DNA of 64,000 nucleotides, taken from assembly GCF_000993785.3 (NCBI RefSeq), contig NZ_CP009922.3, forward strand, positions 1,550,001 through 1,614,000. Reading direction: 5' to 3'. This document shows, one piece after another, positions 23,871 to 30,548 of the stretch. The DNA comes from Streptomyces xiamenensis. Its GTDB lineage: Bacteria > Actinomycetota > Actinomycetes > Streptomycetales > Streptomycetaceae. Positions within the stretch are counted from its first letter, which is position 1. Each line of letters starts with the position of its first letter. Position numbers and translations under genes: made by a program. The notes below the pieces were generated by a model that did not search any database, was not told the DNA's origin, and saw only the letters and a list, made by a program, of their open reading frames with translations.

Positions 23871-23911
23871 CCGTCTTGTGAGCGACTGGCACGGTGCCGC
23901 ACGCTTTCCTT

Positions 23912-25141
23912 GTGACTGAGAGCCACGAGCACACTACTCAAGAAGTCCATCCGTGCTTCGGCGCGGAACTACGAAGGTTACGGAGCCTGGCCGGGCTGAG
24001 CCTCGGCCAGCTCGCTCAGAAGATCCACTACAGCAAGGGTCACCTGAGCAAGATCGAACGCGGCGCCAAGCAGCCTCCTCCCCAGTTGGCCCGCCTGTGC
24101 GACGCTGCTCTGGGCGCAAACGGCAGGCTGGCGTCTCTCTCCTCCTCATCCGCCGACCCGCCTCGCCGGAAGGTCGTGACGGTGGGCGCTGCCTCGGTGC
24201 TTTTGAGTTCCCTTCCCGGGAATCAGACAGCGCCGGCCGCCAGCAAGGAGGAGGGCGTCTCACTGGCCTTTTTCCGCTCCCTCTTCGATCAGTTCCGTCG
24301 GATCGGCCAGGTCGCGGGGCCACACGCCGTGCTGCCTGCGCTGACCGCGCAAACCCACACCCTGACGGGGATCGCGTCGAAGGCCGGAGACCCCGTACGC
24401 ACCCAGTTGCTGCTGCTCGCCTCGCGATATGCCGAGTTCGCGGGCTGGATGGCGCAGGAAGGCGGTGACGATGTCTCCGCCATGAAATGGACCGACGAGG
24501 CGGCCAGTCTCGCCTCTTCGGGCGGTGATCACGACCTGACGCACTACGCCGTACTGCGCAGAGCGCTTGTCACGATGTACGCCGGCGACGCGGATGGGAC
24601 CATCACCCTGGCGCGCGCGGCACAGGACAAGAACACCTCCTACCGCATCCGTGGCCTCGCCGCGGTACAGGAGGCCCAGGGGCACGCCCTGGCAGGCCAG
24701 GAAGTCTTGTGCAGACGCGCCCTGGACAGGTCGCGTGACTTGCTCGACCGCGCCACGAAGGGAGACGCGGCACCCGTTCTCGGTACCTCCCATGTCAGCG
24801 ATCCGACAGCGATGGCGGAAGGCTGGTGCCTGTACGACCTCGGTCGACCCGCAGAAGCCGCTGCTCGCTTGGGTCGTGAATTGAACCGCCTCCCCGCAGA
24901 CGCGATGCGAGCAAGGGCGCGGTACGGGATGCGCCAGGCCCTTGCCCACGCCACGGCAGGAGATATCGACGAGGCGTGTGCGGTAGCAGACTCGCTGCTT
25001 CGATCGGTCGATGTGGTGAGCTCAGCGACGATCAGAACCGACCTGTACCGGCTCAACAGCGAGCTGAATCGCTTCCGTACGCACAGCGTGGTCCGGGAGC
25101 TTTCCCCTCGCATGGCGGCCTCCCTGCGGCCGGCGGTCTGA
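23912..25141 (+). CDS. XRE-family HTH regulator with TPR-like C-terminal region
   Basis: Protein of 409 aa. Residues 15-65 are a Cro/C1-type helix-turn-helix (FGAELRRLRSLAGLSLGQLAQKIHYSKGHLSKIERG). A basic stretch and a short hydrophobic segment follow (RRKVVTVGAASVLLSSLPG, about 90-108), and the rest is helical and TPR-like (AGDADGTITLARAAQD, VQEAQGHALAGQE, RPAEAAARLGRELNRLP). Such HTH-plus-TPR proteins are common in Streptomyces next to variable gene sets. GTG23912 lies 6 bp after CACGCT with no ribosome site, so a leaderless start is likely; GTG23894 is the alternative. The TIR gene follows 55 bp downstream in the same direction, so this is the probable regulator or sensor of that cassette. 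Codon use is less GC-biased than in zur. Confidence 0.8.
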   Translation: MTESHEHTTQEVHPCFGAELRRLRSLAGLSLGQLAQKIHYSKGHLSKIERGAKQPPPQLARLCDAALGANGRLASLSSSSADPPRRKVVTVGAASVLLSSLPGNQTAPAASKEEGVSLAFFRSLFDQFRRIGQVAGPHAVLPALTAQTHTLTGIASKAGDPVRTQLLLLASRYAEFAGWMAQEGGDDVSAMKWTDEAASLASSGGDHDLTHYAVLRRALVTMYAGDADGTITLARAAQDKNTSYRIRGLAAVQEAQGHALAGQEVLCRRALDRSRDLLDRATKGDAAPVLGTSHVSDPTAMAEGWCLYDLGRPAEAAARLGRELNRLPADAMRARARYGMRQALAHATAGDIDEACAVADSLLRSVDVVSSATIRTDLYRLNSELNRFRTHSVVRELSPRMAASLRPAV

Positions 25142-25196
25142 GCGCGACCACCGCCCCGCGCCCCATTCATCACTTTCTCAGAGAGGTGCCTCAAGC

Positions 25197-25982
25197 ATGC
25201 CCGCTTCCCCGGAAATCTTCGTCAACTATCGCACAGGCGATGGAGAAATGGCTGCCGCTATGATCCGGCAGGAGCTAGCTCTCCGGTTCGGAAATGGCCG
25301 TGTTTTCTTCGACAACCAGTCGATCGACAGCGGCGAGAACTACACCCATCGACTTCCTGATGCCATTCGCCGCTGCCAGGTTGTGATCGCGGTCATCGGA
25401 CGCGCGTGGGCAGGTTTCCGGGGAGCAGACGGCGGGCGCGCGCTGGAGAACCCGCATGACTGGACTCGCCGGGAGATCGTGGAGGCTCACGAATACGGAA
25501 TCCCGGTGATTCCTGTGCTGATCGGAAAGAACACTCCATGGCCCAAGAGGTCGGAAGTTCCGCAGGAGTTGGCGTTCGTTACCGAGCACCAGTATGTGAC
25601 TTTCGATCACCGCTCCGCTCCCGCCGATCTGCACCGCATCGGAGAGGAACTGATCAAGACGGTGCCGGAACTCGCGGAACATGATGCGGACCAGGCCGAC
25701 GAGACGGACACGAAAGGCCCGGATGACGAGATGGCGACATCGCAAACCATGGGCGACAACAGTGGCACCGCCTATCAGATGAACAACGTCCCCGGCAACG
25801 TGCGCATCGGGGACACCGGAGCCACCTACAACGGTGGTGTGGGTGCCCTCTTCACCCAGCCCAACGGTGTGGTCAACACCGGAAACGGTCCGCAGCACGT
25901 CACCCAATTCTCCGGTGACGTGCGGGATGCCCGACAGCAATTCTTCCGATCCGAGCCGAGTGACACGGACGACGCTCGGTGA
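25197..25982 (+). CDS. TIR-domain protein with C-terminal NTGxGPQ tail
   Basis: Probable effector (261 aa). Residues 5-135 form a TIR domain: EIFVNYRTGDGE, VFFDNQSIDSGENYTHRLPDAI, CQVVIAVIGRAWAG, then DWTRREIVEAHEYGIPVIPVLI, where Glu93 is in the place of the NAD-cleaving Glu of active TIR enzymes. An acidic linker (about 160-180) leads to a Gly/Asn-rich tail (185-245) with GTAYQMNNVPGNVRIGD and GVVNTGNGPQHVTQFSGDV. The tail motif recurs at the N-terminus of the next protein. The ATG follows GAGAGGTGCC. The stop overlaps the next start (GTGA), so the two are coupled. NAD hydrolysis or signalling is inferred from the fold; it could instead be a scaffold. Confidence 0.85.
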   Translation: MPASPEIFVNYRTGDGEMAAAMIRQELALRFGNGRVFFDNQSIDSGENYTHRLPDAIRRCQVVIAVIGRAWAGFRGADGGRALENPHDWTRREIVEAHEYGIPVIPVLIGKNTPWPKRSEVPQELAFVTEHQYVTFDHRSAPADLHRIGEELIKTVPELAEHDADQADETDTKGPDDEMATSQTMGDNSGTAYQMNNVPGNVRIGDTGATYNGGVGALFTQPNGVVNTGNGPQHVTQFSGDVRDARQQFFRSEPSDTDDAR

Positions 25983-27931
25983 ACGACCCGCTCCAGAACA
26001 TCTTCAACGGGGCCGCCGGCGCGGTGAACACAGGATCCGGTCCGCAGGTCGTTTTCACCATCCTGCAGGACGGCCTGCTGGGGACGAAGCGCGATCCACG
26101 ATTCATCGGGCAGGACTATCTCCGCTGGCTCGCCCGGCGATTCTCCACCCCAGCCGGCTGGGGCGTCGCCCACCGCCTTCTGACGGAGCACGGAATCGTA
26201 CTTCTCAGTGCCCCCGAAGGAGCTGGGAGAAAGAGCGCCGCAATGATGCTGCTGCGGCCGCATCATCGTTCCCGGCGCACCATCATCGAACTTGCGGACA
26301 CCCCGGACGGCCCCGGAGTACCGGTCCTCGCGCCTGACACCGTGGAGCCGGGTGATCACCTTCTGCTCGACCTGAGCCGCTCCGACTCCGCATCTCTCGC
26401 GGCCATTCAGCGCAGGCTGGCGTCCTACCACGCCGCTATCCGTGATCTGGATGCCCGGCTGGTGGTCATTCTGCCGGCGAACCCGGAATTCACTCCGTCG
26501 GAACTGCGGCCGTTCCACGCCTCACTCAACCGCCCCGATAGCATCAACCTCTTGCAACGCCACTTGCGAGCCGATGGCCTCGTGCTCGGGCGGAAAGACT
26601 TTCAGTACCCTCCCCTCACGGCGTGGCTCAACGAGGCTCCGGCTCGTGCGCTCGCCGAGTTGGCCACGCTGATCCTGTCCGCACGTCACGAGACACCGGC
26701 CGAGTCCTTCACGACGTGGTGTGACCACGCGCTGAGCGCCCTGCGTCCCTGGACGCGCGATGTCACCAGCCGCATCACCCGCCACCGCCTGGCATGGCAA
26801 CGAGCCATGCTCCTGTCGGCCGCGATGCTCACCGGCGCACCGGGGGAAGCGGTACTGACAAGCACTCGCATCCTGCTCGGCGTGATGCGTCAGCCCGACG
26901 GGGAAGACATTCCGGTACTGGAACGGGACGACCTGTCCCAGATGCTGACCTCCATCGACGCCGAAACCGACGGGGAAGGCAGGGTTCATTTCCCACGACT
27001 CGCCTATGACCAGGCGGTGCGCCGCCACTTCTGGACCAACAGACCGGCTCTGCGCCACGGTTTCCGTGAGTGGGCGGACCGTCTGTGCAAAGAGGTTCCC
27101 CTGGCCCCTGACGAACGTGCGGCTTTCGTCGCACGCTTCGCGGAACAGTGTCTGCGTACCGGACGGCCTCAGGACTTGGAGGAACTGGCCAGCAGTTGGA
27201 CGGAGCCCGGCCAGCCCAGTGAGCTGATGGCAGGAGCAGCGAACGCTCTCGAGCGGGGATTGCGCAGCGAACCGTACGCCCTCCGGTTCCGAGGCACCCT
27301 GTACAACTGGGCGAAACAGAGCCACCTCGGCGACAGCCGACGCACTGTCATTGCCAAGGTGTGCGCCGATGTTCTCGCGCCAAGCCGCCCGAATGAGGCA
27401 CTTGTCCGCCTGCACCATCTGGCACGCCGCGAGGATGTGGCCGGAAAGCGTGTCGCCTTTGAAACACTCCGCGGTCAGGTCGACGGCGATAGCGGGCAGC
27501 GACGCCGGTTGCTACGACGACTTGCCCGAGCCAGCGCAGAGTACCGCGACGCAGATCTCCGGCTCTTCCTCGACTTCTCCGACCCCTACGTCATCGGATC
27601 CGATGACGGACTGATAGGCCGCGCGGACGTGCGCCTCGACCTCAGAACCTGCTGGCGCACGGTCCTCCTGGACGAACCGCGCGAACTGTGGCTGGGACCG
27701 CTTCATCAGTGGCTCGGAGCTTGCGCTGCGGGACATCGCCCGGAACTCCTGCTGGATCTGCTGGTGCGGGCGGTGAGTGACAGGCAGGACAGCATCGAGG
27801 AGTTGTACACGGTGGCCCGAGCCTGGTCGTGCGCGTCCGTGGAAGAACGCGAACAGCGACGGACAACGGTCTCGCTGCTTCTCGACACGATCGATGTGGT
27901 GCAGGACAGGGAAATGGAGCCCACCGGATGA
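25979..27931 (+). CDS. Large P-loop ATPase-like protein (STAND-like) with N-terminal NTGxGPQ motif
   Basis: Protein of 650 aa not confidently assigned to a named family. The N-terminus has AVNTGSGPQVVF (residues 15-26), the motif also found in the TIR protein. A P-loop-like strand-loop follows: IVLLSAPEGAGRKSAA (73-88), with Arg between the last Gly and Lys of Walker A, then a Walker-B-like HLLLDLS with Asp131. Residues about 190-640 are mostly helical with winged-helix-like and repeat-like stretches, as in STAND-type sensors. There is no TM helix. GTG25979 overlaps the TIR stop, and its own stop overlaps the next ATG. Family assignment is inference; an inactive NTPase is possible. Confidence 0.7.
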   Translation: MNDPLQNIFNGAAGAVNTGSGPQVVFTILQDGLLGTKRDPRFIGQDYLRWLARRFSTPAGWGVAHRLLTEHGIVLLSAPEGAGRKSAAMMLLRPHHRSRRTIIELADTPDGPGVPVLAPDTVEPGDHLLLDLSRSDSASLAAIQRRLASYHAAIRDLDARLVVILPANPEFTPSELRPFHASLNRPDSINLLQRHLRADGLVLGRKDFQYPPLTAWLNEAPARALAELATLILSARHETPAESFTTWCDHALSALRPWTRDVTSRITRHRLAWQRAMLLSAAMLTGAPGEAVLTSTRILLGVMRQPDGEDIPVLERDDLSQMLTSIDAETDGEGRVHFPRLAYDQAVRRHFWTNRPALRHGFREWADRLCKEVPLAPDERAAFVARFAEQCLRTGRPQDLEELASSWTEPGQPSELMAGAANALERGLRSEPYALRFRGTLYNWAKQSHLGDSRRTVIAKVCADVLAPSRPNEALVRLHHLARREDVAGKRVAFETLRGQVDGDSGQRRRLLRRLARASAEYRDADLRLFLDFSDPYVIGSDDGLIGRADVRLDLRTCWRTVLLDEPRELWLGPLHQWLGACAAGHRPELLLDLLVRAVSDRQDSIEELYTVARAWSCASVEEREQRRTTVSLLLDTIDVVQDREMEPTG

Positions 27932-28932
27932 CTGCGAACCACAAAACTCTGCTCGGCTATCTCACTGTGCTGTCGATCCTGGCCTTTCTCATCGTCGGTA
28001 TCGGCTTGAGCTGGCCCCCTTGGTGCTGGGTCATCCTCGTTGTCACCGCGCTGAGCACGTCGGTGGCCACCATGGTCCCCACAAGGGAGCACCGGGTGCC
28101 GCCGCCGGACGATCCCTATTTCTTGGCGCCCGACGCGGAGCCGACCCCCGCCGGACCGCAGTACATGGAGCACCGCATTCACCGTGTCGCCCTTCCGAGC
28201 TGCACTCCGGACTATCGCTTCGAGTTTTCGGCCACGGTTCGCTGGTACGAGATGGAGACAGAGGACGACTCACCACTGGACGGAGGGTCTCTCGCCGCGA
28301 GAGCAGTTCTGTCACGCGCCCGGGTTATCACGCAGTACGAGCACCCGTCCCAGTACTCCCTCACCGAGCATCTACTCAGCGGTGAACTGGGCCTCACCGC
28401 CCCCGACGACCGGCGCAGAGTGATGGCCATGGCCCGCGATGTACGCCTCGCGCTCCCTGAGACGGACCGGGAGCGGCTGGAGAAACTGGCCATGATCCGC
28501 AAGGACGAGGACGTCTGGGAGCACGAGCGCAACCACGAACGGAACAAACGCGCCTATCTGGGGGACGACGTGCTGAAGGATCCGGGCAGCGCCCTTGTGT
28601 GGTGGCTCGCGAGGAACGAAAACAAGCTGCACGAAACGGCGGATCTCATCGGTCTGTTCACCCTGCTGTCGGCCGCGGCCAACAACCAGGACCTTCCCGA
28701 TGTCTCCACCTCCCCGCTGAACCCCTCGGAACCGGTGGAGGACGCCCCTCTCACCGAGTCGGAACGGACGGTGGTGGAGGCGCTGGTCGATCTGATGCGC
28801 CACGCGGACATCTCCGTGGACAACACCCTGTTCATCGATCGGATCATCAAAATCCTGGAAAACTCCGGCCGGCCCGCAGCCGCCGACGAGATCCGGCGGG
28901 CGTTCGCGCCCGATGAGGGTCCTGACGACTGA
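27928..28932 (+). CDS. Two-TM membrane protein with SPFH-like cytoplasmic region, function unknown
   Basis: Protein of 334 aa. Two TM helices lie at about 8-27 (LLGYLTVLSILAFLIVGIGL) and 33-50 (CWVILVVTALSTSVATM). The remainder is cytoplasmic: a beta-rich part (YRFEFSATVRWYEME), then helices with ARVITQYEHPSQYSLTEHLLSGELG, a charged WEHERNHERNKRAYLGDDVL segment and LVWWLARNENK. The strand followed by long charged helices recalls SPFH/band-7 proteins, but the match is weak. ATG27928 overlaps the ATPase stop (ATGA), so it is the fourth member of the cassette and could anchor it to the membrane. A kinase gene with its own ribosome site starts 53 bp later. Confidence 0.7.
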   Translation: MTANHKTLLGYLTVLSILAFLIVGIGLSWPPWCWVILVVTALSTSVATMVPTREHRVPPPDDPYFLAPDAEPTPAGPQYMEHRIHRVALPSCTPDYRFEFSATVRWYEMETEDDSPLDGGSLAARAVLSRARVITQYEHPSQYSLTEHLLSGELGLTAPDDRRRVMAMARDVRLALPETDRERLEKLAMIRKDEDVWEHERNHERNKRAYLGDDVLKDPGSALVWWLARNENKLHETADLIGLFTLLSAAANNQDLPDVSTSPLNPSEPVEDAPLTESERTVVEALVDLMRHADISVDNTLFIDRIIKILENSGRPAAADEIRRAFAPDEGPDD

Positions 28933-28985: not shown

Positions 28986-30548
28986 GTGGCGGGGAGTCTG
29001 TTCGTGGGGCCGCAGGGGGCGGCCGACCGGTACCGGCTGGTGCGGTCCATCGGGCGGGGCGGCGAGGCGGTGCTGTATCTCGCCGAGATCGAGCTGTCCG
29101 GCGGCACCGAGCCCGTGGTCGTCAAAGTGCTGGACATGCGCCGCACCGTCCCCCAGCAGCGGTTCGCGCAGATCAGCGCCAAGTGGAACGAGCAGGCCGA
29201 ACTGCTGCGATTCGCGCACCGCGTGGGGGTGGTCGGGGTCAGGGAGCACTTCGAGGGGCCGCCGCCGCATCCGGCGGGGCGGGCGGAGGAGACGAGCGGG
29301 CGGACCCTGTGCCTGGTGATGAACCATGTCGACGGGCTCGATCTGCGGGACTGGCGCGAGGAGTTGACCCCGCACCTGGAGTTTCCGGCCGAGCGCCGCG
29401 CCGTCCTGCGCGTCCTGGAGCAGCTCGCCGAGGTGCTCGACTGGCTGCACTCGGGCGCCGCGACCCCCTCGGGCCGGACCGTCATCCACGGCGATCTGTC
29501 GCCGGGCAATGTGATGGTGAACGCCGACGGCCAGGCGACGCTGGTGGACTTCGGGCTGAGCAAGCTCGCCACCGAGCATCAGACCGCCGAGCCGTGGCTG
29601 ACCCCCGGATTCGCGGCGCCCGAGGTGTACGAGGGCAAGCGCTCACCGGCGGCCGACCGGTACGCCTTCGGGGCGCTGGCGTACTTTCTGCTCAGCGCGC
29701 AGTCCCCGCCCGGCACCGCCGAGGAGCTGCGGGACGCGTTCGGCGCGCTGCCACGGCTGGGGGCGTTGCCGCAGGAGCGGCTGGACCGGCTTCTCACCCT
29801 GTTCGCGCCGCGCCCGGAGCGCCGGCCGCACACGCTGACCGAGTGGGTACGCCTGGTCGCGCTGCGGACCAGCGGCGCGGCGGCGGCCTCCCCCTCCGTA
29901 CCGCCTCCGCCCCCGCTGCCCCCGGCGACCGCCCCGCACCGCAGGACGGTGCGTGAGCCGCTGCTGGCGGCGGCGGCCGTGGCGGCGATCGCGCTGGGCG
30001 GGGTGGGCGGCTATCTGCTGGGCGGCGGGGGCGACGGAGCGGGCGCCGGAGCGGGGCCGGCCGCCACGGTCACCGAGACCGTCACCGAGACGGTCGGCGA
30101 GGGCGGAGACGATCTCGGCCTGGGTGAGATCTGGGACGAGGGCGAGGGGGGCGAGGCGCCGCCCGTCAGCCCGCTGGTCGACCTCGAACCGGTGGAGATG
30201 CCCTACGGGATCATGCGGGAGCCCGCGCACATCGACGGCACGGAGTACCAGGACTCCCTCACCTTCAGCAGCTGCGTCCTGGAGGGCCCGGTCTCCTACA
30301 ACCTGGGCCGCTCCTGGACCTCCCTGGAGTTCACCGCCGGGCTCCACGACGCGTCCGTCAAGGAGTCGGTGCGGTTCACCGTGCGCGCCGACGGCGAGCC
30401 GCTGGTGAGCGAGACACTCACGCTGGGCGACGCCGACTCCTACACCCTCGACGTGACGGACGTCCTGCGCCTGGAGATCGAGGCGCTCCCCGAGTCGTAC
30501 TGTTCCGACTGGGTCTTCGCCGTCGGCGACCCGGTCCTCAGCCGCTGA
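28986..30548 (+). CDS. Receptor-like serine/threonine protein kinase with extracellular domain
   Basis: Membrane protein kinase of 520 aa. The kinase domain (about 16-295) has the Gly-rich loop [10 protein letters not shown], Lys47, the catalytic HGDLSPGN (168-175; HGD instead of HRD) and DFG (188-190) followed by [11 protein letters not shown] Pro-rich linker and one TM helix (about 324-347) precede an extracellular part with a Thr/Glu/Gly linker and a C-terminal beta-sandwich (about 400-520) resembling NPCBM-type carbohydrate-binding domains (TYQDSLTF-like start, [16 protein letters not shown]). GTG28986 is preceded by GGGGGAGG. It follows the TIR cassette by 53 bp but has its own TACCCT promoter-like box, so membership is uncertain. 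The last 11 bp overlap the convergent uppS. Confidence 0.85.

Follow-up and report, generated by a model that had tools for sequence, protein, structure and literature searches.

Amyloid pairs of a NOD-like receptor (NLR) and an effector have been described in fungi and filamentous bacteria, the effector tail being templated by the receptor head (excerpts of PMC7889193, PMC8086366, PMC12261475 and PMC9815663). In BASS pairs, which include TIR proteins as a less frequent partner, a short motif is found at the receptor N-terminus and at the effector C-terminus, and the genes are adjacent or overlapping and actinobacterial (excerpt of PMC7889193). We analysed 64,000 nucleotides of the Streptomyces xiamenensis genome (contig NZ_CP009922.3, positions 1,550,001 to 1,614,000; hereafter the window) and found that a cassette of four genes, P1 to P4, shares this layout, a TIR protein (P2) and a receptor-like protein (P3) carrying the same short motif at tail and head, respectively. 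The paired motif is the best clue to mechanism and was absent from a preliminary description of the locus made from its sequence. The features are as follows, in window positions:

23894..25141, + strand: P1, regulator with HTH_31 and a TPR-like part, NsdA family (an in-frame GTG at 23912 is an alternative start)
25197..25982, + strand: P2, TIR protein with a Gly/Asn-rich C-terminal tail
25473..25475, + strand: codon of E93 of P2, a glutamate that aligns within DWVHKEIV of SARM1, at the catalytic position
25866..25895, + strand: motif copy 1, GVVNTGNGPQ, in the P2 tail
25979..25982, + strand: P2-P3 stop/start overlap, GTGA
25979..27931, + strand: P3, degenerate nSTAND3-like receptor, a P-loop domain followed by a helical array
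26018..26047, + strand: motif copy 2, GAVNTGSGPQ, in the N-terminal head of P3
26210..26236, + strand: degenerate Walker A of P3, with Arg84 in place of Lys
27928..27931, + strand: P3-P4 stop/start overlap, ATGA
27928..28932, + strand: P4, membrane protein with a predicted SPFH/stomatin-like fold
28153..28566, + strand: SPFH-like region of P4, residues 76-213, the span of the best structural matches

This layout is that of the amyloid NLR/effector pairs, in which a receptor head templates an effector tail. We propose, with a probability of about one half, that the cassette is a signalosome in which a triggered receptor templates the P2 tail motif into an ordered assembly and so switches on NAD+ cleavage. 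The templated assembly would probably be amyloid-like, and the attack sensed would probably be that of a phage; we infer that the receptor is triggered, that amyloid forms, that NAD+ is cleaved and that the cell resists phage. The helical array of P3 would detect the invader, the flexible P3 N-terminus would become exposed and nucleate P2 tails, and the clustered TIR domains would begin to cleave NAD+. At the membrane, P4 would form a platform or cage to hold or confine the complex; P1 would set expression, and loss of NAD+, or a product of the TIR domain, would arrest growth of the infected hypha.

The identical gene order in many genomes places the cassette beyond chance. With P3 as query, some match was obtained in at least 73 of 293 genomes of the order and a match at E < 1e-40 in at least 52, the window genome included (both lower bounds, four candidates having been scored per genome). 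Neighbours were counted at the window and at all 51 other near-complete P3 loci (n=52). P2 is the immediate upstream neighbour of P3 in 52/52, P4 is the downstream neighbour in 50/52, and P1 is the next gene 5′ of P2 in 47/52, window counted. The P2-P3 offset is −4 bp at 39 of 51 loci when the start is chosen by codon score alone, and at 50 of 52 when the start closest to the TIR stop is taken, a choice that favours this value by design. Genes were called with a codon-score script that missed or shortened some of them, such as that of L158, regained by tblastn. Searched independently, P4 was found in 55 of the 293 genomes, namely all 52 P3 genomes and three others (G163, G173 and G227), the only ones with P4 and no near-complete P3, where the matches are partial. 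A P4-led search of named genomes yielded 16 loci, with P3 adjoining in 15, P2 in 14 and P1 in 14. The possibility, raised in the preliminary description, that homologues of the three proteins never co-occur is refuted by these counts. A solitary P4 relative, with neither TIR nor receptor, lies at 7920-9083 of L122 (Saccharopolyspora).

A class-wide P3 profile search detected relatives in 26 of 296 genomes, with 31 places listed. The 20 regions examined correspond to 21 of these places, 19 regions being from outside the order and one (L174) from the same genus. P2, P3 and P4 occur together in 11 of the 20; in those 11, P1 is upstream in four, downstream on the other strand in five and not found in two. 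P3 has no evident partner gene at L171 and L174, and the stand-alone relative at L171 has a head that is RHIM-like by eye (LLQIGHMHGHVSIHMGD).

The motif, with consensus G-P-V-H/N-T-G-x-G-x-Q, occurs in the P2 tail at 49 of the 52 loci and in the P3 head at 42, and the remaining 75,612 residues of the four proteins gave 7 background matches. On this count of 7, a third copy in P4 or P1 is not supported. Ten heads are motif-free. Two of them (L052 and L078) are shortened gene calls and five (L048, L050, L053, L055 and L076) are near variants. At L037, L047 and L072 the motif is missing from P2 and P3 alike, and since these loci neighbour each other in tree leaf order, a single joint loss may explain all three. 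The local match between P2 and P3 of the window scores 50, a value reached by one of 1,000 shuffles (z 5.0), and at 41 of the 52 loci shuffled heads never reached the real pair (200 shuffles each). Cognate pairs also outscored permuted ones, none of 20,000 permutations reaching the cognate value, in a test with kinship uncontrolled that used the 33 loci at which the first regular expression found a motif in tail and head, and dropped 19. The final Q of the motif is replaced by a hydrophobic residue in both copies at 15 loci, in the tail alone at 8 and in the head alone at 1; on the tree these switches amount to just 4 and 2 changes, hence to few independent events.

The motif might instead be a docking peptide that keeps P2 and P3 in a fixed, non-amyloid complex, activated by a conformational change of the receptor. 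It is short and rich in Gly, Asn and His, and residues 1-37 of P3, modelled with low confidence and without a clear fold, are consistent with such a peptide. Nevertheless, what is seen is two like copies and not a peptide with its pocket, which suits homotypic assembly, and amyloid NLR pairs have been described with the same layout (excerpt of PMC7889193). We therefore consider docking unlikely and prefer templated assembly.

The coupling of tail and head can be followed where the enzyme itself differs. In 7 of the 20 class-wide regions (L164, L166, L168, L169, L170, L172 and L173) a protein of a different family stands upstream of P3. It carries D, GDG and LRMRVSxHxG blocks, the last two of which we take to be class III cyclase hallmarks, and its likeness to class III cyclases is weak: in a PDB profile search the Ma1120 cyclase (E 0.05) came behind an unrelated match, BST2 (E 0.024), and scans with Pfam (4 of the 7 sequences) and PADLOC (2 of the 7) were silent save for one chance Pfam match (E 0.13). 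At six of the seven loci, the tail of the replacing protein and the head of the cognate receptor match, with z of 18.4 (L164), 16.8 (L166), 10.3 (L168), 8.3 (L169), 5.0 (L172) and 5.5 (L173); tail and head of L170 do not match (z 0.5). Four of these six have tags of other kinds than that of the window, NFSGASGTFVGVNQNS at L164, GGVDGTISASTVIAGHNHG at L168 and a RHIM-like VQ..G.GGV at L172 and L173, while QTHVGIGDI (L166) and PTHNGFGDL (L169) belong, as variants, to the THTGxGD type of the window, here on a different enzyme. When the receptors were relabelled, the cognate sum was reached by 3 of 5,040 assignments, the true one among them, and in an 11 x 11 table of the seven swapped and four TIR pairs the cognate partner ranked first in 8 of the rows and in 10 of the columns. 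Of the seven swapped loci, at least four (L164, L168, L172 and L173) have a P4-like protein 3′ of P3, those of L172 and L173 being assigned by joint profile comparison (probability 95.4). Tag copies that stay matched while the enzyme, and at times the tag, changes are what should be expected of a tag coupling receptor to enzyme. As the enzyme slot can be filled by a TIR or a cyclase-like protein, the conserved part would be the receptor-tag-enzyme logic and not one chemistry.

The same exchange bears on a messenger system, in which the TIR or cyclase-like protein would make a nucleotide messenger read by P3 or by the SPFH-like protein; P4 would then be the effector, and NAD+ depletion would be beside the point. 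Thoeris-type TIRs produce messengers. Both the occupants of the enzyme slot and the match of the ThcB4 model to P2 (E 4.7e-6, below cut-off) would fit such a system. However, Pfam, PADLOC and NCBIfam scans recognised no ligand-binding domain in P3 or P4, and a diffusible signal has no need of a matched tail and head motif. A messenger is thus improbable in our judgement, and we retain the signalosome as the preferred reading.

The individual proteins were then assigned as follows. P2 matches Pfam TIR_2 (E 8.4e-10), and its best PDB relatives are SARM1 TIR structures (E 6e-7). E93, which we equate with the SARM1 catalytic glutamate position, is unchanged in 112 of 112 aligned TIR sequences, some of them not independent of each other. 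P2 is a TIR protein that keeps the catalytic glutamate and would likely cleave NAD+. PADLOC returned just ThsB for it (E 0.031), and every NCBIfam match, that of ThcB4 included, was below cut-off.

P3, presented in the preliminary description as a P-loop ATPase, is indeed STAND-like, if weakly (Pfam nSTAND3, E 0.017, below cut-off), and a helical array is predicted. At the position of the Walker A lysine, 86 of 91 aligned P3 sequences have R; K, L and A occur once each and a gap twice. Because the nSTAND3 match is weak and the lysine is missing in the family, ATP hydrolysis by P3, and with it the label ATPase, is doubtful. The structural search used residues 29-256, so that the C-terminal helices were barely covered. 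PADLOC gave no match to P3 and NCBIfam none above cut-off. A housekeeping enzyme was ruled out for P3, as Pfam and NCBIfam gave no such profile and the distribution is patchy.

The two transmembrane (TM) helices noted earlier in P4 are predicted here as well, and a fold can be added to them: in a Foldseek search with the predicted structure, the top 27 rows were all vault or SPFH proteins. P4 is thus predicted to have a fold of the SPFH/stomatin/prohibitin type behind two TM helices. No Pfam family was found at E 1, PADLOC gave none and NCBIfam none above cut-off. Rows 7 and 8 of the Foldseek result are, by their titles, vault cages in complex with ADP and ADP-ribose; the latter is also made by TIR domains, which is perhaps a coincidence. 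The nearest named relative of P4 is from Streptomyces carpaticus (90% identity) and that of the TIR protein from S. harbinensis (49%). In the S. carpaticus record, P4 is 90% and the TIR protein 47% identical to the window proteins, as if the TIR and SPFH genes diverged or recombined at very different rates.

NsdA has a role in differentiation. P1 contains Pfam HTH_31 (E 6.4e-14) and passes the NCBIfam model NF053720 of the NsdA family (173.9 bits, cut-off 75), so that the helix-turn-helix (HTH) and TPR-like regulator first described can now be specified as an NsdA-family protein; the HTH also accounts for its PADLOC matches, which are to HTH-type and RmrA/control-protein models (best 9.6e-8).

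All four genes lie where first described, with 4 bp shared by P2 and P3 and by P3 and P4, and 55 bp between P1 and P2. The less GC-extreme codon use was confirmed as well: the G+C content at third codon positions (GC3) is 0.77, 0.72, 0.75 and 0.82 for P1 to P4, compared with 0.97 for the adjoining znuB-like gene, 0.89 for zur and 0.94 for a kinase gene. The base composition of the cassette is foreign. Cassette and kinase gene are placed between zur and uppS. Among 23 zur loci of relatives, 17 have uppS at most ~1.1 kb from zur with no intervening cassette gene; at the remaining 6, uppS was not found within the 1.5 kb examined, which gives no call on an empty site. The kinase gene (28986-30548), lying between cassette and uppS, encodes a Ser/Thr kinase-like protein with a C-terminal NPCBM domain (Pfam scan). 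It has matches at E 1e-60 in 2 of 40 relatives, in the kinase part only, and this GC-rich gene is possibly a separate arrival.

Neighbouring genes vary among many of the loci, one set of which has common surroundings. The proximity to defence islands that the preliminary description had proposed to look for was not borne out, the scanned flanks containing no clear island: 20 of 25 flank proteins, at chosen loci, were scanned, and five model matches were obtained at E 1e-10, namely generic kinase models (L055), part of mad3 (L054), HEAT-ARM (L058), PDC-S27 (L061) and PDC-S07 (L073). The lack of an island would agree with a developmental or stress circuit of the mycelium, such as NAD-linked control of the cell cycle or of death under an NsdA-type regulator, and so would the control of antibiotic production by NsdA, as given in the excerpted literature. 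Against such a circuit stand the traits of accessory genes, that is, patchiness (52/293), foreign composition, neighbours that vary and a zur-uppS site that is empty in relatives, and we consider it highly improbable next to a signalosome.

Comparison with known systems supports the earlier view of a conserved TIR, STAND-like and membrane protein cassette of foreign composition, with no match to a known system in PADLOC and NCBIfam scans. With Thoeris the cassette shares a TIR domain with a conserved catalytic glutamate. As the preliminary description stated, it does not match that system: a ThsA-type SIR2/SLOG partner was not found by Pfam, PADLOC or NCBIfam in P1, P3, P4 or the adjoining kinase, and the Thoeris models are weak on P2, ThsB and ThcB4 both being below cut-off and the latter far below it. 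Avs and other STAND proteins have a P-loop STAND domain followed by a helical array, as does P3. The cassette differs from them, and is not a typical Avs, in that the enzyme is a separate protein and P3 has neither a PADLOC match nor the Walker lysine. P4 resembles SPFH proteins (stomatin, prohibitin, HflK/C and vault) in that an SPFH-like fold is predicted to follow its N-terminal TM helices, but lacks a Pfam match and is tightly linked to the TIR/STAND pair.

Conflict systems coupled by effector-associated domains (EADs) likewise have a homotypic module on a core component and an adjacent TIR or other signalling enzyme (Kaur et al. 2020, PMC7159879, and 2021, PMC8195603; excerpts). EADs are small, mostly helical domains in these excerpts, whereas the tag of the cassette is a Gly/Asn-rich motif of ~10-35 residues; a Pfam scan, which possibly does not cover every EAD, found none in P2 or P3. 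SPFH is named once in PMC7159879, in the reference list, and not in PMC8195603. The principle of receptor, tag and TIR is already known from the BASS pairs (excerpt of PMC7889193), and the cassette shares their layout. A BASS3 peptide given in the excerpt of PMC8086366 (GVQVGDGNVQIN), the one BASS peptide compared, is by eye similar to some P3 heads, HTGDGNQY (P0010) among them. From BASS pairs the cassette differs in its degenerate nSTAND3-like receptor, in the linked SPFH-like gene and NsdA-type regulator, in that no Bell domain was recognised, and in a TIR that is interchangeable with a cyclase-like protein.

The combination of a degenerate nSTAND3 receptor, a linked SPFH protein and an exchangeable enzyme was not found in searches of the open-licence literature. 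More tentatively than the signalosome as such, and with the odds somewhat against it, we suggest that the cassette represents an undescribed signalosome class, in which a STAND-derived pseudo-ATPase receptor would act by prion-like templating of an enzyme tail on an SPFH membrane cage, with a swappable amyloid tag setting specificity, so that different nucleotide-consuming enzymes, a TIR or a cyclase-like protein, could be fitted to one receptor. If the signalosome reading is right, a TIR enzyme would be united with a prion-like tag and with a membrane protein of the SPFH type, a trio not found together in those searches, in a tightly linked cassette carried by roughly one in six of the genomes of the order examined (52/293). 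The cassette raises the question of how a STAND receptor without the Walker lysine is switched, and its natural matched and mismatched tag pairs would make it directly testable whether bacterial NLR pairs signal by amyloid templating.
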